A stretch of 64,000 nucleotides of DNA from Desulfofustis limnaeus (lineage in GTDB: Bacteria > Desulfobacterota > Desulfobulbia > Desulfobulbales > Desulfocapsaceae). Positions 13,894-27,796 of the stretch are shown one piece after another. Location of the stretch: contig NZ_AP025516.1 of NCBI RefSeq assembly GCF_023169885.1, positions 3,575,501 to 3,639,500 of the forward strand. Direction: 5' to 3'. The stretch's first letter is position 1. Each line of letters opens with the position of its first letter. The translations under genes were made by a program, and so were the position numbers. Under the pieces are notes generated by a model that was not told where the DNA came from, did not search any database, and was given only the letters and a program-made list of their open reading frames with translations.

Positions 13894-14448
13894 CTACACC
13901 AGGTATGTCTCCTTCAATTGTCCGAGCATAGCGTGAAATTCCTCATGTTTCCCAAATCCGATCTGTTCTCGCTCCAATTCCTCGAACTCCTCAATAAGCC
14001 GGTTATCCTCAGCCTCGCTGATGCGCCCTTCAGCCATGGGGAAAAGAATCCCGTTTTCCTTGTCGATGTGTTGGCGGAGCAGACGCACATACTGCTTCGC
14101 TGCCGTAGTTATCTCATCCACTGCGGATTTCCGGCTCAGCCCATATGCGGCAAACGCATCTGCCAGTCGAGCAATGATCTCCCGGCCTTGATCGTGCTCT
14201 GCGAGCATGACGCCTATGGGGCCTTCCTCCCGCGGCACGCCGAGCTGTTCCAGGACGGGAAACAGAAAATTTTCCTCTTTTCCGTGGTGACACTTATCCG
14301 CGAAGATTGAGAGAAACTCCACGATGCCTTCAAGGTCTTTTTGCGGAACGGCACCGCCTTGCTCGATTCTCCTGGCGACAGCGGTGAGAATATCGAGCAT
14401 CAGTTTGATACCTTCGTGCTCCTTCATGAGTTCTTCGGTTGCGCGCAT
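13894..14448 (-). CDS. Hemerythrin HHE-domain protein
   Basis: A 184-residue four-helix di-iron protein. Candidate iron ligands are seen in order: H10 region (MKEHEGIK), CHHGKEENFLFP, AEHDQGREI and HIDKENGILFPMAE. These fit two HHE half-motifs binding an oxo-bridged di-iron site. HHE proteins bind O2 or NO, or repair iron-sulfur clusters after nitrosative stress (as YtfE/RIC does). Its place beside the NO reductase and NorR points to NO defence or sensing. Strong ribosome-binding site AAAGGAGG precedes the start. Confidence 0.87.
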   Translation of the reverse strand: MRATEELMKEHEGIKLMLDILTAVARRIEQGGAVPQKDLEGIVEFLSIFADKCHHGKEENFLFPVLEQLGVPREEGPIGVMLAEHDQGREIIARLADAFAAYGLSRKSAVDEITTAAKQYVRLLRQHIDKENGILFPMAEGRISEAEDNRLIEEFEELEREQIGFGKHEEFHAMLGQLKETYLV

Positions 14449-14507
14449 ACAAACCTCCTTTAGACGTTTTTTGGGCTCATCCGTATTAGGCGTGCTTGTT
14501 TGTTCCC

Positions 14508-14828
14508 TCAGATCGGCGGTGCTATCGTGACCAGAATCCGCATGTTCGTACGGGCTCGAACCCCGTGCGGCTCACGGATCTGCGAAATGAGGATGTCTCC
14601 CTGAGAAGCAGGGATTTCGTGGTCTTTTTCTCCGAGGAAAAATCCGTCGCCCTCCACCACCTGGATGGAGAGTTCGCCGTCAAGATCGTGGGAATGGACC
14701 GGAAAGGTCACCCCGGCGTCGAGATTGAAGTTGATGATTTTGAAGTTTTCCGAATCCTCCACCAGGAAGAAGCGCTTCATTGCTCCCGGCGTATAGTCAT
14801 TGGTTTCTGTTAGTTTCAGTACTTTCAT
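14508..14828 (-). CDS. Small cupin-domain protein
   Basis: A 106-residue single cupin barrel. Motif 1 is visible as FPVHSHDLDGELSIQVVEG (two His and a Glu able to bind a metal) and motif 2 as GDILISQIREPHGVRA. Such proteins are metal-dependent enzymes or ligand sensors; the substrate is not inferable. I chose the ATG at 14828, which follows AAGGGAGATATC; the frame extends 31 codons further but without conserved features. Located between hemerythrin and NO reductase genes, same strand. Confidence 0.8.
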   Translation of the reverse strand: MKVLKLTETNDYTPGAMKRFFLVEDSENFKIINFNLDAGVTFPVHSHDLDGELSIQVVEGDGFFLGEKDHEIPASQGDILISQIREPHGVRARTNMRILVTIAPPI

Positions 14829-15021
14829 GATATCTCCCTTGTTTCTTTTAGGTCCGTTACGGATGTAAGGGAACCTTGAAAAATTGCCATTTCGCCCAAT
14901 CTCATCGTTGCGCAATGACATTTTATCCTCGGAATATCATGTATATGCCTGCGGGAAAATGATCTTGCGCGCCTCGATCTTGAACGAAATTTCGAATTTT
15001 TCAAGCTCCCCGTAAGTGGTT

Positions 15022-15065: not shown

Positions 15066-17342
15066 TTAACGGGTTGCCGCCAGCAGACGGGCCAGCTTCA
15101 GCCGACGGGGCTCCCAACCGGTGACCAGGCTGCCGACAAACCAAGCCAGCATGAAGACACCGAAGATGAAGATGGTATCGCCGATCATCCGCAGCCAGCG
15201 CAGCACCTCGATAACCGGTGTCTGGAGGAACTCGGCGCTGCGGGCAAACCACAGGCCGTGCTCGATGCTCGCCCAGGTCTGGGCTAGCCCGATGGGCAAC
15301 AGGCTCAGAGCTATCATCAGGGCCAGCCCGCCGTTCATCGACCAGAAGGCGATGGCCAGGGGTCGGTCGTTCCAGGCCTTCTCCGGATAGAGGCGGCGGA
15401 ACACCAGCAACACCAATCCCAAAGACAGCAGGCCGTAGACACCGAACAGGGCGGCATGGGCATGCACCGGGGTGGTATTGAGACCCTGCATGTAGTAGAG
15501 GGCGATGGGCGGATTGATCAGGAAGCCGAAGACACCGGCGCCCACCAGGTTCCAGAAGGCCACGCCCATGAAGAAGCGGATCGGCCAGCGGTATTTCTCC
15601 ATCCAGGGGCGGGCCGTGGCCTTTTTCGACGTCTCCCAGGCCTCATAGCCGATGAGGGCCAGGGGAACCACTTCCAGCGCCGAAAAGGTGGCACCGATTG
15701 CAGTAATCGACAACGGTGTGCCGCTGAAGTAGAGGTGATGGAAGGTCCCGGGAATACCGCCGAACAGGTAGATGGCCGACGACATGAGGACCGCCCGGGT
15801 GGCACTTACCGCCTTGATCAACCCCAGTTGAGTGAAGATGAAGGCCAGGGCGACGGTGGCAAAAACCTCGAAGAATCCTTCAACCCAGAGGTGAACCACC
15901 CACCACCGCCAGTATTCCATGACCGTCAAGTGGGTCTTGGCGCTGTAGAAGAAACCGGCCCCGTAGAACAGGCCGATCGCCCCGGAGGCGCCGGCAAAGA
16001 GCAGCACCAGCTGTCGCCGGTGGCCACGCTCCTGCAGGGCCGGCCACAACGCCCGAAGCATCAGAGTAAGCCAGAGCACCAGACCGACGAAGAGCAGGAT
16101 CTGCCAGAACCGGCCGAGTTCGATATACTCGTACCCCTGATGGCCGAACCAGAAGCCATGGTCGAGGCTGAAGACCTGCTTGACCGACAGCCATTCACCC
16201 GCCAGCGAACCGACCACCACCAGCAGCAGGGCGCCAAAGAGCAGATCGACGCCCAGTTTCTGAAATTTCGGCTCGCGCCCGCCGACAGCCGGGCCGAGGA
16301 ACAGACCGGCCGCCAGAAACGCCGTGGCGATCCAGAATACCGCCAGTTGGATATGCCAGGTCCGGGCCACCGCATAGGGGATAATCTCGGACAACGGCAC
16401 ACCGTAGAAGGAATTGCCTTCCACGGTATAGTGGGCAAGCAACCCGCCGAGCAGGGTCTGAGCCACGAACAGCAGGATAACGGTCACGCCGTATTTGCCC
16501 ACGGCCCGCATGGACGGGGTGACCTGCAGCTGATCGAGCGGGTCGGAGGGTGCTGGAACGGGCTCGCCCTCCTCCCGATCGGTGAAGACCTTATACCAGA
16601 CAAGTGCGCCGATGCCGGCGAGCAGAACGACAATCGAGATGATCGACCAGACCAGGTTGGCAGTCGTCGGTTGATTGTCGATCAGCGGCTCGTGAGGCCA
16701 GTTATTGGTATAGGTATACGGCTGACCGGGACGTTCGGTGGAAGCCGCCCAGGAGGTCCAGAAGAAAAAGGCGGTCATCGCCTGGCGTCGCTCCAGATCG
16801 GGAATAGCCGATACCTGCAGCGCATAGGCTTCGCGCAGGTCATCAAATTGCGCAGCGTCGCCAAACAGGCCGAGATAGTGCTCCGCCGTCCGATTGATGG
16901 CGTCGGCCCGCTCCGGTGCCAGGGTTACGGTCTCGGTGGCCGGGTCGTAGGTATTGGTGCGCATCAGTTGCTTGACCCGGGCATCGATGCCCGCCTGATC
17001 CACCGGATCAAGAGCCGCATAGGGGGCCTGATAGACGTTCTGGCTGACGATGTCCTGCAGGGCGACGATCTCACGGTGCAGCCAGTCTGCCGACCAGTCC
17101 GGCGCCTGGTAGGCTCCGTGCCCCCAGATCGAACCGACCTGCTGGCCGCCGATGGACTGCCAGACCTGCTGACCACGCAGGATCGTGTCCTTGTCCATCA
17201 ACACGGTACCGTCGGTGGTCTGCACCACCTGCGGAATAGGCGGCACGCTGCGGTAGAGTTCCTTCCCGAACCAGCCGAGAATGAACATGGTGCTGAAAAT
17301 AACTGCCCCCAACAGTATCCAGAGTTTTTTGGTGGTATCCAT
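15066..17342 (-). CDS. norB: Quinol-dependent nitric oxide reductase (qNOR)
   Basis: A 758-residue single-subunit enzyme reducing 2 NO to N2O with electrons from quinol. It has an N-terminal TM helix (about 5-27) and a periplasmic cytochrome c-like domain without heme-binding CxxCH (about 40-220). The NorB-type 12-13 TM core follows. Conserved His-bearing helices are seen as RTWHIQLAVFWIATAF, VVHLWVEGFFEVFATV, GTFHHLYFSGTPL and HAHAALFGVYG. These ligate heme b, heme b3 and the non-heme iron. Start at 17342 follows TAAGGAGG. A sigma-54 promoter and two NorR sites precede it, so it is induced by NO. Confidence 0.95.
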   Translation of the reverse strand: MDTTKKLWILLGAVIFSTMFILGWFGKELYRSVPPIPQVVQTTDGTVLMDKDTILRGQQVWQSIGGQQVGSIWGHGAYQAPDWSADWLHREIVALQDIVSQNVYQAPYAALDPVDQAGIDARVKQLMRTNTYDPATETVTLAPERADAINRTAEHYLGLFGDAAQFDDLREAYALQVSAIPDLERRQAMTAFFFWTSWAASTERPGQPYTYTNNWPHEPLIDNQPTTANLVWSIISIVVLLAGIGALVWYKVFTDREEGEPVPAPSDPLDQLQVTPSMRAVGKYGVTVILLFVAQTLLGGLLAHYTVEGNSFYGVPLSEIIPYAVARTWHIQLAVFWIATAFLAAGLFLGPAVGGREPKFQKLGVDLLFGALLLVVVGSLAGEWLSVKQVFSLDHGFWFGHQGYEYIELGRFWQILLFVGLVLWLTLMLRALWPALQERGHRRQLVLLFAGASGAIGLFYGAGFFYSAKTHLTVMEYWRWWVVHLWVEGFFEVFATVALAFIFTQLGLIKAVSATRAVLMSSAIYLFGGIPGTFHHLYFSGTPLSITAIGATFSALEVVPLALIGYEAWETSKKATARPWMEKYRWPIRFFMGVAFWNLVGAGVFGFLINPPIALYYMQGLNTTPVHAHAALFGVYGLLSLGLVLLVFRRLYPEKAWNDRPLAIAFWSMNGGLALMIALSLLPIGLAQTWASIEHGLWFARSAEFLQTPVIEVLRWLRMIGDTIFIFGVFMLAWFVGSLVTGWEPRRLKLARLLAATR

Positions 17343-17396
17343 GATGGCCTCCTTAAGAGAATAGCGGTGGCTGACTTCGCCCCTCACCCATCATGA

Positions 17397-17449: not shown

Positions 17450-17466
17450 GTTGTTATATTGACAAC
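17450..17466. promoter_or_regulatory. NorR enhancer site 1
   Basis: GTTGT-TATATTG-ACAAC: a perfect inverted repeat around the GT-N7-AC core bound by NorR in E. coli. About 40 bp upstream of the norB -24 element. Confidence 0.8.
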
Positions 17467-17494
17467 AAACATGTGTTTCTTTTTTCACAACAAC

Positions 17495-17511
17495 GTTGTA
17501 AATTACACAAC
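17495..17511. promoter_or_regulatory. NorR enhancer site 2, abutting the norR start codon
   Basis: GTTGT-AAATTAC-ACAAC, same architecture as site 1 and 45 bp from it. It ends 1 bp before the norR ATG, so bound NorR would probably repress its own gene. Confidence 0.8.
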
Positions 17512-17512
17512 C

Positions 17513-19114
17513 ATGGATATCCTCACTACGCTAGCCGCCATCGCCATCGACCTGACGGCCGACATGAAGGCCGAAGATCGGTACGACCGGTTGTTGACCG
17601 CGCTCCATCGAGCCATTCCCTATGATGCCGCCACCCTGTTGCAGGTGGAACAGGACCGCCTGGTCCCCATCGCCGCCCGGGGCTTGACCCCGGATGCCAT
17701 GGGGCGCACCTACCGGCGCCAGGAACACCCACGCCTCGATGTCATCTGCAGCGCCGAAGAGCCGGTCCTTTTTTCCCGGGACAGCCCCCTGCCCGACCCC
17801 TTCGACGGCATGCTGGCCGACGATCCGGGTGGTCTGCATCCCATCCACGCCTGTCTTGGCTGCCCGTTATACCTCAACGATCGGCTGATCGGCATCCTCA
17901 CCGCCGATGCACTCGATGCCGGAGCCTTCGACCACCTTCCCCAGCACTACCTGAAGACCGTCAGCGCCATCGCGGCAGCGCAGATGCACCTGGCGTCGCT
18001 GCTCACCGCGCTGGAAGAGAAGGCCGAGCGGCAGGGCTTGATCGTCTCCGACCTGATGCAGGACCGCTCACTCCAGTCCGGGTCGGAAATCATCGGCCGC
18101 AGCGAGGCGATTGCCCATCTGCGCCGGGAGATCGAACTCTGCGCCAAATCGGACTTCACCATTCTCATCCAGGGCGAGACCGGGGTGGGCAAGGAACTGG
18201 TGGCCCGGGCCATCCACCTCCATTCCCGACGACGCGACCAGGCCATGCTTTACCTGAACTGCGCGGCCCTGCCGGAGTCCTTGGCGGAGAGCGAGTTGTT
18301 CGGCCATGTGAAGGGTGCCTTCACCGGGGCGACGCAAGACCGCTCCGGCAAATTTGAACTTGCTCACGAAGGGACGCTGTTTCTCGACGAGATCGGGGAA
18401 TTGTCACTGCCGGTGCAGGCGAAAATCCTGCGGACGATCCAGAACGGGGAAGTCCAGCGGATCGGCTCGGCCAAAACCAGCCGCGTCGATGTCCGCCTGT
18501 TGGCCGCCACCAATCGGGATCTGGCGGCAGAGGTGGGGGCCGGACGGTTTCGCCTCGACCTCTACCACCGGCTCAACGTCTACCCGGTCCGGGTGCCGCC
18601 CCTGCGCGAGCGCAAGGAAGATATCCCCCTGCTGGCCGGACATTTCATCGACCGGGCGCGGAGAAAACTCGGCCTCGGGGAGGTGCGCATCACCCCTGAG
18701 GCCCTGCGCCTCCTGACCCGATACAGCTGGCCGGGCAACGTTCGCGAACTGGAGAACATCATCGCCCGGGCCGTGCTCAAGGCCTCGCAGCGTGACGCCA
18801 GATCGCAGCACCTGGTGCAGATCGCTCCGGCGCATCTGGCCGGCGACATCGGTTCGGCCATGTATGTCCAACCTGCCGAGCTGCCGTCGACAAAACGGTC
18901 CGGGACCAGTCAGCTTTCCCTGCGCGAAGAGGTCAGGCTCTACCAGATCAAGCTCATCGAGGACGCCCTGACCAGACACAACGGCAACTGGGCTGCCGCG
19001 GCCCGTGACCTGCAGATGAACCGCAGCAACCTGCATCACCTGGCAACCCGGCTGGGTATTCGGCACAAACAGCTTACGGGTGTTGCCGCTGATACGCTTC
19101 AGCCGGAAAGCTGA
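17513..19114 (+). CDS. norR: NO-responsive sigma-54 activator NorR
   Basis: A 533-residue enhancer-binding protein. The N-terminal GAF domain (about 1-165) keeps the residues proposed to bind the NO-sensing iron in E. coli NorR. The candidates here are R74 (EHPRLD), D95 and D98 (DPFDG), H112 and C114 (IHACLG) and D132. The AAA+ domain has Walker A GETGVGK at 221-227, GAFTGA at 268-273 and Walker B FLDEIGE. A Fis-type HTH ends the protein. NO binding releases GAF inhibition and drives norB from its sigma-54 promoter. Start at 17513 immediately follows a NorR site and lacks a visible Shine-Dalgarno, so the mRNA may be nearly leaderless; an in-frame ATG at 17471 exists. Confidence 0.93.
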   Translation: MDILTTLAAIAIDLTADMKAEDRYDRLLTALHRAIPYDAATLLQVEQDRLVPIAARGLTPDAMGRTYRRQEHPRLDVICSAEEPVLFSRDSPLPDPFDGMLADDPGGLHPIHACLGCPLYLNDRLIGILTADALDAGAFDHLPQHYLKTVSAIAAAQMHLASLLTALEEKAERQGLIVSDLMQDRSLQSGSEIIGRSEAIAHLRREIELCAKSDFTILIQGETGVGKELVARAIHLHSRRRDQAMLYLNCAALPESLAESELFGHVKGAFTGATQDRSGKFELAHEGTLFLDEIGELSLPVQAKILRTIQNGEVQRIGSAKTSRVDVRLLAATNRDLAAEVGAGRFRLDLYHRLNVYPVRVPPLRERKEDIPLLAGHFIDRARRKLGLGEVRITPEALRLLTRYSWPGNVRELENIIARAVLKASQRDARSQHLVQIAPAHLAGDIGSAMYVQPAELPSTKRSGTSQLSLREEVRLYQIKLIEDALTRHNGNWAAAARDLQMNRSNLHHLATRLGIRHKQLTGVAADTLQPES

Positions 19115-19370: not shown

Positions 19371-22016
19371 ATGGCAACGCATGCTTCCGTCAGCACCGGC
19401 TGGAAAAGCCTCGATCTGATCATCGATCACCTGCGTCGCGGGGATAATGTCGTCTGGCAGGTGGACGCCATCGACGACTATCAACGGCTGGTCACCTCGT
19501 TCGTCAACAACGCCCTGGTCGACAACGAGCGGGTGGTCTATCTCCGTTTCGCCCGCCACCTCCCCTTGGTTGAAGGGCGCATTGACCGGATCACCATCCA
19601 CAAGCTCGACGTGGAGCAGGGGTTTGAATCGTTTTCATCGCAGGTCCATACCATCATTACCAATGAGGGCAGGGACGCCTTCTACGTGTTCGACTCGTTG
19701 TCCGATTTGCTGCACGTCTGGGCCACCGACCTGATGATCGGCGATTTCTTTTCCATCACCTGCCCGTACCTGTACGAGCTGAACACCATCGCCTACTTCG
19801 CCATTCTCCGGGATCGCCACTCGTTCAAGGCCATCGCCCGCATCCGCGAAATCACCCAGGTCCTCATCGACGTCTACAACTACCGGGGCCGCATCTGCAT
19901 CCATCCCATCAAGGTCCTGCATCGTTATTCCCCCACCATGTTTTTTCCGCATATCAAGCGGAAAGACAGCCTGCAACCGGTGATCAACAGCGTCGACGCG
20001 TCGGCGATTTTCACCCATCTCTCCCGCCACAAGACCCGGGTCGCCCACCGGCATCTGGACTATTGGGATCACCTCTTCATCAGGGCCAGAAACCTCAATG
20101 AGTCGAATGCCCCGGAAGAGGAAAAGCGGGACATGGTGGAGCAGCTCAGCCGGGTGTTGATGACGCGCAACAAGAAAATCCTGGCGCTGATCCGGGAACA
20201 TATGACGCTGGACGACTTCCTGCAGATCAAGGTGCGGTTGATCGGTACCGGGTTCATCGGCGGCAAATCCGTAGGCATGCTGCTGGCCCGCAAGATCCTT
20301 GCCGAAGACCAGAGCCGCCGCTGGCAGGATATCCTCGAGCATCATGATTCCTTCTACATCGGCTCCGACGTCTTTTACAGCTACATCGTCCAGAATGGCT
20401 GGTGGAAGCTGTTCATGGCCCACAAGACTCGGGAGGGATATTTCGACCGGGCGGCTGAACTCAAAGAACGGTTGTTGGAAGGACGCTTCCCCGAGGGAAT
20501 CACCGAGCAGTTCCAGCTCATGCTCGAATACTTCGGCCAGTCGCCAATTATCGTCCGTTCCTCCAGCCTGCTCGAGGACGCTTTCGGCAGTGCCTTCGCC
20601 GGCAAGTACGACAGCTGTTTCTGCGTCAACCAGGGACCGCCGGAACAACGGTACGAAGCGTTTGAACAGGCGGTCCGCCAGATTTTTGCCAGCACCATGA
20701 ATGAGGACGCCCTCGCCTATCGACGGCAGCGGGGCCTCGACCGGATGGACGAACAGATGGCCCTGCTGGTGCAACGGGTATCCGGCGCGTACCGCAAGTA
20801 TTATTACTTTCCGGAAATGGCCGGCGTGGGTCTGTCCCACAATCCGTTCGTCTGGAAAAAAGGGATGGATCCGAAGGCGGGCATGATCCGCCTGGTCCAT
20901 GGCCTGGGGACACGGGCGGTGGATAGGGTGGAAAACGATTATCCGCGGATCATCGCCCTGGACGACCCGCTCGTCAAACCCCTTTCCGGTATGAAGGATA
21001 TCCGGCGCTTTTCCCAGCACTTCGTCGATGTGCTGAACCTCCAGGAAAATCGTATCGAGAGCGAGCCGTTTGAGAACATGCTCGACCGTGGCGTCACCGC
21101 CACGGTCGAGCTGTTGACCGTCCGCGACACCGAGGCCATGGATGCCTTGCGGGACCTGGGTCTGCCGGCGAAAGATCAACGGGTCCTGACCTTCGATCCA
21201 TTTCTGACGACAACCCCGTTCATCGAAGTGATGCGCTCACTGCTGGGGCGTCTCAAAGAGGTTTATCGTCACCCGGTGGACGTTGAATTCACGATCAACT
21301 TCAACAAGGCGGGCGATTTCCAGATCAACCTGCTGCAATGCCGGCCGTTTCAAACTATCGGCTTGGGAGACGGCAGCCCCCTGCCCGCCTCGCTTCCCGA
21401 AGCGTCCCTCCTGCTTCGTATGGAAGGCCGCTTCATGGGGGGCAGTATCCTTCAGCCAATCGATCTGGTGATCTTTGTCGACCCCGAGCGATACACCCGG
21501 CTGACCCTTTCGGAGAAATACGGGGTGGCCCGCCTGATCGGTAAGCTGAACCGCAGCATCGTCAACAAAGAAACGGCTCCAACCTTGCTGCTCGGGCCGG
21601 GCCGCTGGGGTACACACACCCCGGCGATGGGAGTGCCCGTCCACTTCGCCGAGATCAATCATATCTCCGCCCTGGCCGAGATCAGCTATCGGGACGGCAG
21701 CCTCATCCCCGACCTGTCGTTCGGCACCCACTTTTTCCACGACCTCATCGAGACCGGCATCTTTTACCTGGCCATCTATCCGGAACAGGCGGATGTTCTG
21801 TTTAACCGCCGCTGGTTTCTCGACCAGCCCAACCTGTTGTCGACGCTCAGCCCCACCGACAGCCCTCTGGCTGAGGTCGTGCACGTTCTGGATGTGCGGG
21901 ATGCCGGCCTGGTGATCCACTCCGATGTGGCATCACAGCAAGTCGTATGCTATCTGTCCGGAGCCGCCACGGCCAGCGCCAACGAGCCGCAGCCCGATCC
22001 CGCAAGCAGCCCGTGA
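19371..22016 (+). CDS. PEP/pyruvate-binding (PPDK_N) domain protein with degenerate KaiC-like N-terminus
   Basis: An 881-residue cytosolic protein. Residues about 1-230 resemble a RecA/KaiC module. The P-loop position reads RRGDNVVWQVDAIDD (22-36) instead of GxxGxGK[T/S], while a Walker B-like FYVFDSLSD (104-112) remains; it is probably not an ATPase. Residues about 285-720 match the ATP-grasp PEP/pyruvate-binding domain of PPDK and PEP synthase: GTGFIGGKSVGMLL, IIVRSSSLLEDAFGSAFAGK, and NLLQCRPFQT at its end. The phospho-His swivelling domain and PEP-utilising barrel are absent, so it cannot perform the full PEP synthase reaction. It may be a kinase or a regulator. Start at 19371 follows GAGG; the frame is open further upstream. 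Monocistronic. Confidence 0.75.
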   Translation: MATHASVSTGWKSLDLIIDHLRRGDNVVWQVDAIDDYQRLVTSFVNNALVDNERVVYLRFARHLPLVEGRIDRITIHKLDVEQGFESFSSQVHTIITNEGRDAFYVFDSLSDLLHVWATDLMIGDFFSITCPYLYELNTIAYFAILRDRHSFKAIARIREITQVLIDVYNYRGRICIHPIKVLHRYSPTMFFPHIKRKDSLQPVINSVDASAIFTHLSRHKTRVAHRHLDYWDHLFIRARNLNESNAPEEEKRDMVEQLSRVLMTRNKKILALIREHMTLDDFLQIKVRLIGTGFIGGKSVGMLLARKILAEDQSRRWQDILEHHDSFYIGSDVFYSYIVQNGWWKLFMAHKTREGYFDRAAELKERLLEGRFPEGITEQFQLMLEYFGQSPIIVRSSSLLEDAFGSAFAGKYDSCFCVNQGPPEQRYEAFEQAVRQIFASTMNEDALAYRRQRGLDRMDEQMALLVQRVSGAYRKYYYFPEMAGVGLSHNPFVWKKGMDPKAGMIRLVHGLGTRAVDRVENDYPRIIALDDPLVKPLSGMKDIRRFSQHFVDVLNLQENRIESEPFENMLDRGVTATVELLTVRDTEAMDALRDLGLPAKDQRVLTFDPFLTTTPFIEVMRSLLGRLKEVYRHPVDVEFTINFNKAGDFQINLLQCRPFQTIGLGDGSPLPASLPEASLLLRMEGRFMGGSILQPIDLVIFVDPERYTRLTLSEKYGVARLIGKLNRSIVNKETAPTLLLGPGRWGTHTPAMGVPVHFAEINHISALAEISYRDGSLIPDLSFGTHFFHDLIETGIFYLAIYPEQADVLFNRRWFLDQPNLLSTLSPTDSPLAEVVHVLDVRDAGLVIHSDVASQQVVCYLSGAATASANEPQPDPASSP

Positions 22017-22139: not shown

Positions 22140-24115
<1,976 letters not shown>

Positions 24116-24452: not shown

Positions 24453-25892
24453 TTACCGCTCCTGGATCTTCCTCAAACGCTGGCGCAGCGTGTTTCTGCT
24501 GATGCCGAGCAGCTTCGAGGCTCGGACCTGATTGCCCTCGCTCTGCTGCAGCGCTGCTTCCAGCAGCACCTCGTCAACCGCTTCGATGATCCGGTCACGC
24601 ATATCCGGCTCGGCCAGGCGGAGCAGTTCCGGGGCGATACGCTCCAACCCATAGCGCAGCCGTTCCAGGAGCTGATCGCGGCCCTGAATCCGGGAACCGG
24701 GTTCAGCATCGGTTGCCGGGAGCGGCAACTCCTTCTCGTCGATGACCGGCCCGGCCGACAACAGGACTCCCCGCCGGACCCAGTTTTCCAGCTCACGGAC
24801 ATTGCCCGGCCAGGAATAGCTGAGCAGCTTGTGCAGCGTCCCTTCCCCGAGGAAACATCTGCTGCGCTGATACTCCCGACAGAAGCGGTCGAGAAAGTAA
24901 TCGATCAGGGCGGGAATGTCTTCGGATCGTTCCCGCAACGGCGGGAGATGCAGGGAAATGACCTTGAGCCGCCAATAGAGGTCTTCGCGAAAACGGCCTT
25001 CCTCCACCTCTCTGTCGATATCACGGTTGGTGGCGGCGAGGATTCGCACGTCCACCGGGATCGACCGGTTGCCGCCGACCCGTTCGATCTCCCGCTCTTG
25101 GATCACGCGTAACAGCTTGGCCTGGAGCGGCAGTGACAGTTCGGCTATTTCGTCGAGAAACAGCGTGCCGCCGTCACACCGCTCGATCTTGCCGATGACG
25201 GTTCGATCCGCACCGGTAAAGGCGCCGCGCTCATGCCCGAAGAGTTCGCTTTCGAACAATCCCTCCGGCACCGCCGCACAATTGACGGCGATAAACGGTT
25301 TGTCGGTTCGTCGGCTATGGTGGTAGATGGCCCGAGCCGCCAACTCCTTGCCCGTGCCGCTTTCGCCGGTAATGAAAACCGCCACATCCTTTTCCGCCAC
25401 CTGCCCGATCAGCTTGAAGATTTCCTGCATCTTCCGGCTGTTGCCGATAATCTGCAGAGGCGTCCGGCCGGCGGCGGGTGACAACTGAGCCGCATCGACG
25501 GCCGGCAGGCCGACCACCTCCTTCATTTGCCGGTTGACCGTCAACGCTTCCCCGACGATTCTGGTCAGATCCTTTTGATCGAACGGTTTGACCAGATAGT
25601 CATAAGCGCCGCGTTTCATCGCTTCGATGGCAAGATCCATGGTGCCGTAGGCGGTCATCAGGATGACCGGGGTCTTGCGCTCTATCTCCTTGATCTGCAC
25701 CAGCGCGTCCAGTCCGTTGATCTCCGGCATCTTGTAATCGAGCATGATCAGGTCGAAGGTCTCGCGGGAAATGGCTTCGACAGCCTCGCGCGCGTTTCTG
25801 CAGGCGGTGACGGTAAAATGCTTGCGCTGGAAAAACCTGCTGAGAAAGTGCAGCAGGCCGTCATCGTCATCGATTACTACAACTTTTTCCAT
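24453..25892 (-). CDS. Sigma-54-dependent response regulator, NtrC family
   Basis: A 479-residue regulator. Receiver domain at 1-120 has the acidic pocket VIDDDD and the phospho-acceptor D52 (LIMLDYKMPEI). The AAA+ domain (about 155-385) has Walker A GESGTGKE, an intact GAFTGA sigma-54 contact loop and FLDEIAE. The C-terminal Fis-type HTH (GNQVRASKLLGISRNTLRQRL) binds DNA. The start at 25892 lies 5 bp after the sensor kinase stop, so the pair is one operon. A 23-codon upstream in-frame extension overlaps the kinase. Likely targets include the neighbouring sigma-54-like promoter before the gdhA unit. Confidence 0.93.
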   Translation of the reverse strand: MEKVVVIDDDDGLLHFLSRFFQRKHFTVTACRNAREAVEAISRETFDLIMLDYKMPEINGLDALVQIKEIERKTPVILMTAYGTMDLAIEAMKRGAYDYLVKPFDQKDLTRIVGEALTVNRQMKEVVGLPAVDAAQLSPAAGRTPLQIIGNSRKMQEIFKLIGQVAEKDVAVFITGESGTGKELAARAIYHHSRRTDKPFIAVNCAAVPEGLFESELFGHERGAFTGADRTVIGKIERCDGGTLFLDEIAELSLPLQAKLLRVIQEREIERVGGNRSIPVDVRILAATNRDIDREVEEGRFREDLYWRLKVISLHLPPLRERSEDIPALIDYFLDRFCREYQRSRCFLGEGTLHKLLSYSWPGNVRELENWVRRGVLLSAGPVIDEKELPLPATDAEPGSRIQGRDQLLERLRYGLERIAPELLRLAEPDMRDRIIEAVDEVLLEAALQQSEGNQVRASKLLGISRNTLRQRLRKIQER

Positions 25893-25897
25893 TATGC

Positions 25898-27796
25898 TCA
25901 CGTCCCGGAGCGGGTTTCCGTATCCGGGAGATACAGTGAAAAAACCGTGCCTTGTCCGCACGTGCTGGCCACCCGGATATCACCGCCGTGGTTGCGGACC
26001 GTGTTCAACACTAACGGCAGCCCCAGTCCGGTCCCGGTCGGCTTGGTGGTGAAAAACGGTTCGAAGATCCTGGACAGCTGATCGTCACTGATGCCCTGCC
26101 CGGTATCACCGATGTCGATCCTGACGCAGGCAACATCCCGGCCATCGACAACAAACCGATCCGCCGCTGCCGAGACGGATAAGGTTCCATGCGCCGGCAT
26201 GGCATCCAGGGCGTTGACCAGCAGGTTGATCAGTGCCTCGGCCAGCAAGCGTCGATCGCCCACGATCAGCGGCAGCCGTTCTTCAAGAGAACGGTGCAAG
26301 ACGCACTCCTGGCGATTGATCTGGGGCCGGACCATGGCCAAAAGATCGGCCAGCAAAGCGTTCACATCAATATCGGAAAACACCAGATCCTGCGGTTTGG
26401 AAAAATCGAGAAAGCGGTTGATCGTCGCCTCGATCCGACCGATCTGGTTCATGGCAATGGTGAAATCTTCCTCGAATTCAGCAGAAATGGCAAGATCCGA
26501 CTGAACCGATTCGAGAAAGAGCTTAATGGAGGTCAACGGGGTGCGGATCTCGTGGGCGATGGCCGCTCCCATTCGGCCCATGGCCGCATACTTCTCCGAT
26601 CGCTGCGCCAGCAGACGAGTCTCACGCAGCATCAAATCGGTCTCTTTCAACTCGGCTTCCCGCTTCCCGACTTGTTCTTCGAGCACCTGATGGCGCTCCT
26701 TCAGCCTGGTTGCCATATCGGTCACCGCTTGGTAGAGCGTTCCGATCTCATCGCTGCGACCGCTGGCCACAACCGGTTCGTCGAACCGGGAGTCGACAAT
26801 CCGTTCCGCGTAGCGGCTCAGTTTTCTGATCGGGGCAACGATATGGGAGCTGATCACCACGGTAAGCGCCAGCGCGCTGAGGATGCAGACCAACACGGCC
26901 AGGAAGAGCAGCCCCTTGAGTTTGTCGACCGCGGCAAACGCCTCGGCCCGATCCAGCTCCACCACGATATACCAATCCGTATCACCCACCTTGAGCGCCG
27001 TTCCCAGGACTTCCACGCCGCGATAATCGAGATAGGCGCCGGTCCGGTCGGCCTGGGCGAAGATGTTTTGGAAGCTTGCCGATTGGGAGATATTTTCCGC
27101 AAGAATCCGGTGCGGCTCGCGATGGGCCAGAAACCGACCTTCCCCATCTACCAGATAACATTCCCCGGTATTGCCAAGGGAGACCGAAAGAATGGAGTGG
27201 ATGATCTTCTCGGTGCCCACCCGCCCATACACCATCCCGGCCACCGTACTGTCGGGACCCGGTACGGGAACTCCAATGAGAAACGATGATTCCCCTGCAT
27301 CAGGCACATGGGTGATGTCTGACATGAACAATCCCTCTCGTGACCCATGGGGGATGCCAAACGCCGGTGACGGTGCCGCGGTCAGGGCGGGACTGGCGGC
27401 AACGATCGCCCCGTCCGCAGAGACCACAACCAATTCCTGGTAGACGGTAAATTTGTTTCTGATCAGATCCAGATAGGGTTCGATCTCAGCAGGCATCAGG
27501 GAGCGGACCAGGGAGGTTTCCGCCACCATTGACATGTCGGTGCGCCGCTCCTCGAGCCAACCGGAAAGAAGCGACGCCTTGTCTTTCGCCACCTGATCGA
27601 GTTGGCGCTCCACCAACTGCACCAGGATCTGCTCGGAATAGAGGTGGGCCAGATAGCCGAAAATCAGCAGCGGTACCAGGGTAAGCGCCAGAAACAGCAG
27701 GGACAACTTCGGTCGTAGCGAACTGTTCCACACTTTTTTCCGGCGTTCGTTCATCAGGCCCCGATCGATCAGCTCACGAAACTGTTCCCCACGCAT
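25898..27796 (-). CDS. Membrane sensor histidine kinase (dCache-HAMP-HisKA-HATPase)
   Basis: A 632-residue sensor. TM1 is at about 30-52 and TM2 at about 290-312. They bracket a periplasmic sensing domain of about 235 residues with dCache_1 character (ELVVVSADGAIVAASP; GNTGECYLVDGEGRFLAHR). HAMP follows (IVAPIRKLSRYAERIVD), then HisKA with phospho-acceptor His in AAIAHEIRTPLTSIKLFLE. The HATPase has LLVNALDAMP, DTGQGI and GTGLGLPLV. It phosphorylates the NtrC-type regulator encoded immediately downstream. Small-molecule ligand (amino acid or carboxylate are common for dCache) unknown. An alternative ATG lies 14 codons in. Confidence 0.92.
   Translation of the reverse strand: MRGEQFRELIDRGLMNERRKKVWNSSLRPKLSLLFLALTLVPLLIFGYLAHLYSEQILVQLVERQLDQVAKDKASLLSGWLEERRTDMSMVAETSLVRSLMPAEIEPYLDLIRNKFTVYQELVVVSADGAIVAASPALTAAPSPAFGIPHGSREGLFMSDITHVPDAGESSFLIGVPVPGPDSTVAGMVYGRVGTEKIIHSILSVSLGNTGECYLVDGEGRFLAHREPHRILAENISQSASFQNIFAQADRTGAYLDYRGVEVLGTALKVGDTDWYIVVELDRAEAFAAVDKLKGLLFLAVLVCILSALALTVVISSHIVAPIRKLSRYAERIVDSRFDEPVVASGRSDEIGTLYQAVTDMATRLKERHQVLEEQVGKREAELKETDLMLRETRLLAQRSEKYAAMGRMGAAIAHEIRTPLTSIKLFLESVQSDLAISAEFEEDFTIAMNQIGRIEATINRFLDFSKPQDLVFSDIDVNALLADLLAMVRPQINRQECVLHRSLEERLPLIVGDRRLLAEALINLLVNALDAMPAHGTLSVSAAADRFVVDGRDVACVRIDIGDTGQGISDDQLSRIFEPFFTTKPTGTGLGLPLVLNTVRNHGGDIRVASTCGQGTVFSLYLPDTETRSGT

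Follow-up and report, generated by a model that had tools for sequence, protein, structure and literature searches.

The closest described counterparts of the protein analyzed here are PEP synthase and PPDK, RPH (structures 5hv1, 5hv3 and 5hv6), and the systems HpeHI, CreHI and PpsAB. In the available part of PMC12167813, the canonical motif of the swivel domain is given as [T/S]xxGGxxxH, and HpeHI is an example in which the ATP-grasp half and the swivel half reside on different proteins. As described in the same part of that source, HpeHI, CreHI and PpsAB resemble our protein in possessing an ATP-grasp domain without a PEP barrel and prove that PPDK_N can serve other acceptors, but differ from it in that their swivel domain is canonical and resides on a second protein, and in that their substrates are phenols (PMC12167813). 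RPH shares with our protein the PPDK_N ATP-grasp domain and the order of the domains, with ATP-grasp preceding the His domain, and the RPH His domain ranks near the top when our C-terminal domain is compared by VIA; however, our protein lacks both the rifampin-binding domain and the [T/S]xxGGxxxH motif, and has an additional KaiC-like N-terminus and a linkage to glutamate dehydrogenase (GDH). PEP synthase and PPDK likewise share the ATP-grasp domain, and the whole model of our protein superposes on residues 12-467 of 2ols (Z 23.1, 362 aligned), whereas the PEP/pyruvate barrel and PF00391 are absent from it and its scores are far below the family cut-offs. KaiC/RecA-like ATPases have the same fold as the N-terminal domain (7s65_B), but the family analyzed here lacks Walker A (50 of 50 aligned members) and contains a single such domain fused to a phosphotransferase core. 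The Parabacteroides distasonis protein WP_041525632.1, annotated as 'PEP/pyruvate-binding domain-containing protein', has the same core and C-terminal domain and adjoins gdhA, but its N-terminus is receiver-like rather than KaiC-like.

The gene is located in a 64,000-nucleotide stretch of the Desulfofustis limnaeus genome (contig NZ_AP025516.1, positions 3,575,501 to 3,639,500; hereinafter, the window, within which all coordinates are counted unless another locus is named). It spans positions 19371..22016 of the + strand, from an ATG at 19371 to a stop at 22016, and encodes an 881-aa protein consisting of a P-loop-less KaiC-like domain, a PPDK_N ATP-grasp domain and a C-terminal domain. These are the coordinates and the frame of the preliminary description, and the protein so delimited is conserved in relatives. 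Upstream, the open frame extends to 19215; in most relatives, the start corresponds to the ATG at 19371. The gene follows a regulator gene of the same strand after 256 bp and ends ~0.1 kb before the convergent GDH gene. One scan of genome contigs detected relatives encoded at 73 loci, most of them over the full length, with most loci aligned from residue 1 to ~861 at 41-81% identity; the hosts belong to Desulfobacterota, Spirochaetes, Planctomycetes and Firmicutes, along with a gammaproteobacterium and an actinobacterium. The window protein and 49 of these relatives make up alignment A1 (50 sequences), from which 24 of the 73 loci were omitted as truncated, frameshifted, redundant or containing a stop. 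When PDB sequences were searched by phmmer with the full-length protein, only weak matches to PEP synthases were obtained (best E 0.011), and the AlphaFold model of the whole protein has a pLDDT of 85.9 and a pTM of 0.86. Long antisense frames overlap the gene, yet it is the + strand protein that is conserved at the 73 loci, and the possibilities of a chance ORF and of an antisense artefact were accordingly rejected. A defense protein was rejected as well, with no match to models of known anti-phage defense systems (best PADLOC E 0.043). A scan for promoters and terminators found no more of these than in shuffled sequences.

The core of the family, that is, the PPDK_N ATP-grasp domain followed by the C-terminal domain with one invariant His, is common to four architectures that differ in their N-termini: the KaiC-type, a short form of ~770 aa (L077-L082), a G-type of 914-1067 aa (L083, L066 and L120), and a receiver type of ~990 aa (L075, L117, L118, L123 and L089). 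The Pfam receiver domain was detected within the receiver type alone, above the cut-off in L075 and below it in L118; read by eye, the first receiver-like domain of this type lacks the usual phospho-acceptor Asp. The genome containing the window encodes a receiver-type paralog of 989 aa (L075, contig C1, ~867 kb), 2.6 Mb from the GDH gene. Judged by eye, an arginyltransferase-like frame directly follows this paralog, and a frame resembling it comes after GDH in L089. In a planctomycete locus (L066, 7917-15212), two core genes of different architecture are arranged tail to tail, and GDH adjoins the second.

The KaiC-like domain comprises residues 1-220 of the window protein (19371..20030, + strand) and was delineated by VIA matches to KaiC chains and by tblastn. 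In the AlphaFold model it adopts the KaiC fold (VIA, 7s65_B, Z 21.9, rmsd 2.7, 195 aligned), with Z of ~20-22 against many KaiC chains and Foldseek E of ~1e-9 for the KaiC/RecA fold; tblastn with this domain matches the KaiC-like/XRE/cupin proteins of L045 and L049 at E of ~1e-16. Walker A was found in 0 of the 50 aligned family members. A conserved stretch, GDNVVWQVD (residues 24-32; 19440..19466, + strand), in which D25 is invariant and most of the other residues near-invariant in A1, occupies, in our reading, the position where the P-loop would be expected. The preliminary description had recognized a KaiC-like N-terminus without Walker A and had named a different fold of this region as grounds for revision; the structure model, with the KaiC fold at Z ~21, bears out the former and not the latter.

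Residues 295-663 (20253..21359, + strand) constitute the ATP-grasp domain, which is identified by Pfam (PF01326, PPDK_N; E 4.9e-50, 171 bits against a cut-off of 27), by VIA (5hv6_A, Z 21.5, 281 aligned) and by conservation over the four architectures. Among 25 sequences representing all four, R396, E639, Q656 and R658 are invariant and K299 is near-invariant; these five residues match ATP ligands of PPDK and are putative ATP ligands here. PPDK_N was the only domain matched in Pfam, with no match to the swivelling domain or the PEP/pyruvate barrel, and the protein ends at residue 881 with all its parts assigned, none of them a PEP/pyruvate-binding barrel. The identification as a PEP synthase was rejected, given a best NCBIfam score of 53.7 against a cut-off of 883 and the absence of PF00391 and of the barrel in Pfam. 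Three points of the preliminary description, a conserved ATP-grasp part (which is intact), a missing PEP-utilizing domain and a protein that is no standard PEP synthase, agree with these results.

Another point of that description, a missing phospho-His domain, is supported only in that the canonical PF00391 domain and its motif are absent: their place is taken by the C-terminal domain with its single invariant His. The parts up to about residue 665, where the earlier description ended, had been properly named, but the conserved domain beyond them was overlooked. This domain, residues 672-864 (21384..21962, + strand), has no Pfam match and contains the motif GPGRWG...SxG[TS]HFF; modeled alone, it reaches a pLDDT of 93.1, and it is present in every core sequence aligned to its end. 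Its invariant residues in the 25 sequences are the motif G-x-G-R-W-G, S783, G785, H787 and F788. H787 (codon 21729..21731, + strand) is the only His that is invariant across the core in the 25 sequences of four architectures, a conservation on the basis of which we propose it as the phospho-acceptor. In the model, H787 is the first residue of a helix (787-794) between two strands; the catalytic His of PPDK likewise begins a helix between two strands.

VIA comparisons of the C-terminal domain match it to the phospho-histidine domain of PPDK (5jvj_B 385-510, Z 5.9, rmsd 3.0, 113 aligned), RPH (5fbu 757-867, Z 5.8), enzyme I (2eza, Z 5.6) and the C-terminus of pyruvate kinase (2e28, Z 5.4), with the caveat that Z below 8 can reflect a common arrangement; the top row, a chaperonin apical domain (Z 6.0), is tied with the swivel domains, as are LD-carboxypeptidases. 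Superposition of the whole model extends beyond the ATP-grasp domain, reaching residue 467 of 2ols and, with 404 aligned, residue 866 of 5hv3. At the sequence level, hhalign of the C-terminal domain against PEP-synthase/PPDK and enzyme-I profiles gave probabilities of 0.1-0.2%, a profile search with the domain produced nothing credible (best E 0.51), and the swivel motif [T/S]xxGGxxxH is present in 0 of the 50 aligned family members; Foldseek of the domain alone returned no match below E 0.001. As judged from the structure model, the C-terminal domain may be a far-diverged phospho-histidine swivel domain.

The convergent gene downstream (22140..23495, - strand) encodes a hexameric-type GDH of 451 aa (Pfam PF00208, E 6.9e-86, and PF02812), which we propose as the functional partner of the protein. 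Among the 73 loci and the window taken together, GDH is encoded within 5 kb of the core in 45 cases, and in 29 of the 44 cases with 3 kb or more of sequence in both directions. At KaiC-type loci, it is located convergently downstream in 28 cases, upstream and co-directional in 10, and downstream and co-directional in 7. In genome draws, where distances are those between profile matches rather than gene ends, GDH was found within 5 kb of the core in 20 of 27 genomes of the window's phylum, 6 of 13 of Spirochaetes and 10 of 16 of Planctomycetes; pooled over the three phyla, this amounts to 36 of 56 genomes and 40 of 63 copies (expected, 0.29). The 27 genomes are those, among 71 of the window's phylum with a match, that have long, high-scoring core matches; the other matched genomes encode PEP synthases or KaiC/XRE/cupin proteins, and the partial core copies that were not counted include one of the receiver type beside GDH (G064:C58, L119). 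Three genomes (G000, G118 and G119) had not been drawn at random, and two of these are GDH-linked. As a control, in 20 of these genomes, none of the 78 PF00391 matches listed was as close as 5 kb to GDH, against 19 of 23 core copies.

The linkage extends to the other architectures. GDH directly adjoins the short form in L080 and L082, and is encoded near the G-type in L083 and L120 and near the receiver type in L089, L118 and L123. Two genomes (G167 and G223) contain two core copies each, with a separate GDH near each copy. In Parabacteroides distasonis, the receiver form is divergent beside gdhA, and a second GDH gene lies ~3.5 kb further on; around the receiver-type locus of Prevotella (L117), no GDH was seen by eye. 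Among Spirochaetes, all 13 genomes that have the core also have GDH, against 32 of the 67 that lack the core (Fisher p 2.3e-4, without correction for kinship). In the tree built from 66 GDH sequences, those paired with the short and G forms make up one clade (support 1.0), apart from a single receiver-type exception, and those paired with the KaiC and receiver forms fall outside it; the type of core architecture follows the GDH clade. There is no GDH within 5 kb of the core in 20 of the 56 genomes, and in G119 none was detected in the genome at E 1e-30. The core gene is tied to GDH, with which it forms apparent operons in relatives, and its earlier characterization as stand-alone and of unknown role understated this connection. 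Gene neighborhood alone does not separate regulation from a shared pathway.

The core is also linked to glutamate synthase (PF01645), which was found within 5 kb of it in 4 of the 23 genomes without a close GDH (G184, G119, G085 and G115), at a distance of ~16 bp in G184 and together with a glutamine-synthetase-like frame at the G119 locus; in a further genome (G063), glutamate synthase is 8.3 kb from the core. The other 18 of the 23 have neither GDH nor glutamate synthase within 10 kb, except for G229, with GDH at 9 kb; G186, with GDH at 5.6 kb, was left out of this search. The P-loop-less KaiC-like domain is encountered as well in a protein of ~435 aa, where it is combined with an XRE-type HTH and a cupin (Pfam, L049; the cupin is just below the cut-off). 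This protein is the upstream neighbor in L045 and L049, and in the window genome it is encoded (L076, L090; C1, at 77.8 kb within ~77.1-78.5 kb) beside an FMN-type glutamate synthase. Because a homolog of the latter adjoins the KaiC-like/XRE/cupin gene in 16 of 26 loci, the KaiC-like domain is suggested to sense a signal of glutamate or ammonium supply.

The protein combines this domain make-up and the retained ATP-site residues with linkage to GDH and glutamate synthase. We tentatively propose, with somewhat less than even confidence, that it is an ATP-grasp/phospho-histidine switch controlling GDH and that the family is a widespread, uncharacterized group of ATP-grasp phosphotransferases. 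A signal would act on the exchangeable N-terminal part (the P-loop-less KaiC-like domain here, a degenerate receiver or uncharacterized domains elsewhere), which would serve as the sensor; ATP would be bound by the ATP-grasp domain, which would phosphorylate H787 in the manner of PEP synthase and rifampin phosphotransferase; and GDH would be switched on or off either by the protein phosphorylated at H787 or by phosphate that H787 hands on. The function of H787 as the phospho-acceptor, a regulatory rather than metabolic role, and GDH as the direct target are likewise parts of the proposal that we infer. A broader version, which we consider possible but rather doubtful, is a multi-phylum system for the control of ammonium assimilation, in which switches with catalytically dead input domains modify or gate GDH directly and are paired with transcription factors of the same fold (P-loop-less KaiC-like, XRE and cupin) at glutamate synthase.

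A metabolic role is the rival that survives best, albeit as an unlikely one. The protein would then be a small-molecule dikinase akin to PEP synthase and rifampin phosphotransferase that phosphorylates, via H787, a metabolite of the glutamate/2-oxoglutarate/ammonium node, and the link to GDH would reflect a shared pathway. All characterized PPDK_N dikinases named in the available part of PMC12167813 (PEP synthase, PPDK, RPH, HpeHI, CreHI and PpsAB) phosphorylate small molecules. The conserved ATP site, the glutamate synthase neighbors in some genomes and the purA/asnB/carB-like neighbors seen by eye in L058 and L128 also fit a metabolic enzyme, but no separate substrate-binding domain is apparent, and the variety of N-termini within one linkage (KaiC-like, receiver-like and others) suits input better than catalysis. 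The pseudo-enzyme character of the input domains, namely the KaiC-like domain that lost its P-loop and the receiver-like one that, by eye, lacks the phospho-acceptor Asp, would be in line with a non-catalytic ATP-grasp protein that senses ATP and, as a scaffold or in a chaperone-like role, binds GDH (and glutamate synthase) and tunes their activity or assembly by ATP/ADP, as would the unproven swivel homology of the C-terminal domain. However, (near-)invariance of the residues matching known ATP ligands and of one His is more than binding needs, and we consider such a scaffold improbable. That the protein is only the ATP-grasp half of a two-component system similar to HpeHI or PpsAB, with an ordinary swivel domain on a separate, unlinked acceptor protein, has a precedent in HpeI, a stand-alone PPDK_N subunit whose partner HpeH bears the swivel domain (available part of PMC12167813), and unlinked PF00391 proteins exist in all 20 genomes searched, but it is very improbable, considering that 0 of 23 core copies are within 20 kb of a PF00391 domain among the matches listed and that the C-terminal domain accompanies every core that could be followed to its end. 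The same count disposes of a swivel-domain partner gene nearby, a finding that, according to the preliminary description, would have overturned its interpretation; that interpretation holds for the domains, the lost P-loop and the exclusion of a standard PEP synthase, but is not supported in that form for the phospho-His domain and understates the context of the gene.

The ATP-grasp domain is of a known kind; the literature searched yielded no account of the combination of domains, of the C-terminal domain or of the link to GDH, and no description of the core protein was found there, in a search with most subscription journals outside its coverage. GDH connects carbon metabolism with nitrogen metabolism. 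A conserved protein that uses ATP and whose gene neighbors that of GDH in several phyla would represent a layer of GDH control that we did not find described and, because the gene is next to the GDH gene in many bacteria, the protein may control the uptake of ammonia by the cells. If the broader version outlined above is correct, GDH would be regulated by a histidine-phosphate relay that employs a new swivel-like domain in Desulfobacterota, Spirochaetes, Planctomycetes and Bacteroidota, the carriers including a gut commensal (one Parabacteroides record). For proteins known solely as 'PEP/pyruvate-binding domain-containing protein', the linkage provides a lead to function, and the C-terminal domain may add a new swivel-like member to the phospho-histidine domains.

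Several other genes surround the core gene and GDH. A 192-aa protein encoded at 23537-24115 (- strand), with no credible Pfam match (best DUF6926, E 0.19), adjoins GDH and is conserved at 26 of 74 loci. Next to GDH, a Sigma-54-type response regulator and a sensor kinase were recognized by eye (24453-25961 and 25898-27796, - strand); their relatives occur in the same order in many Desulfobacterota loci, and the pair is perhaps a nitrogen two-component system. Upstream of the core gene, and also identified by eye, are a quinol-type nitric oxide reductase (15066-17387, - strand) and a divergent NorR-like regulator (17459-19114, + strand), preceded by hemerythrin-like and cupin-like frames at 13894-14921.
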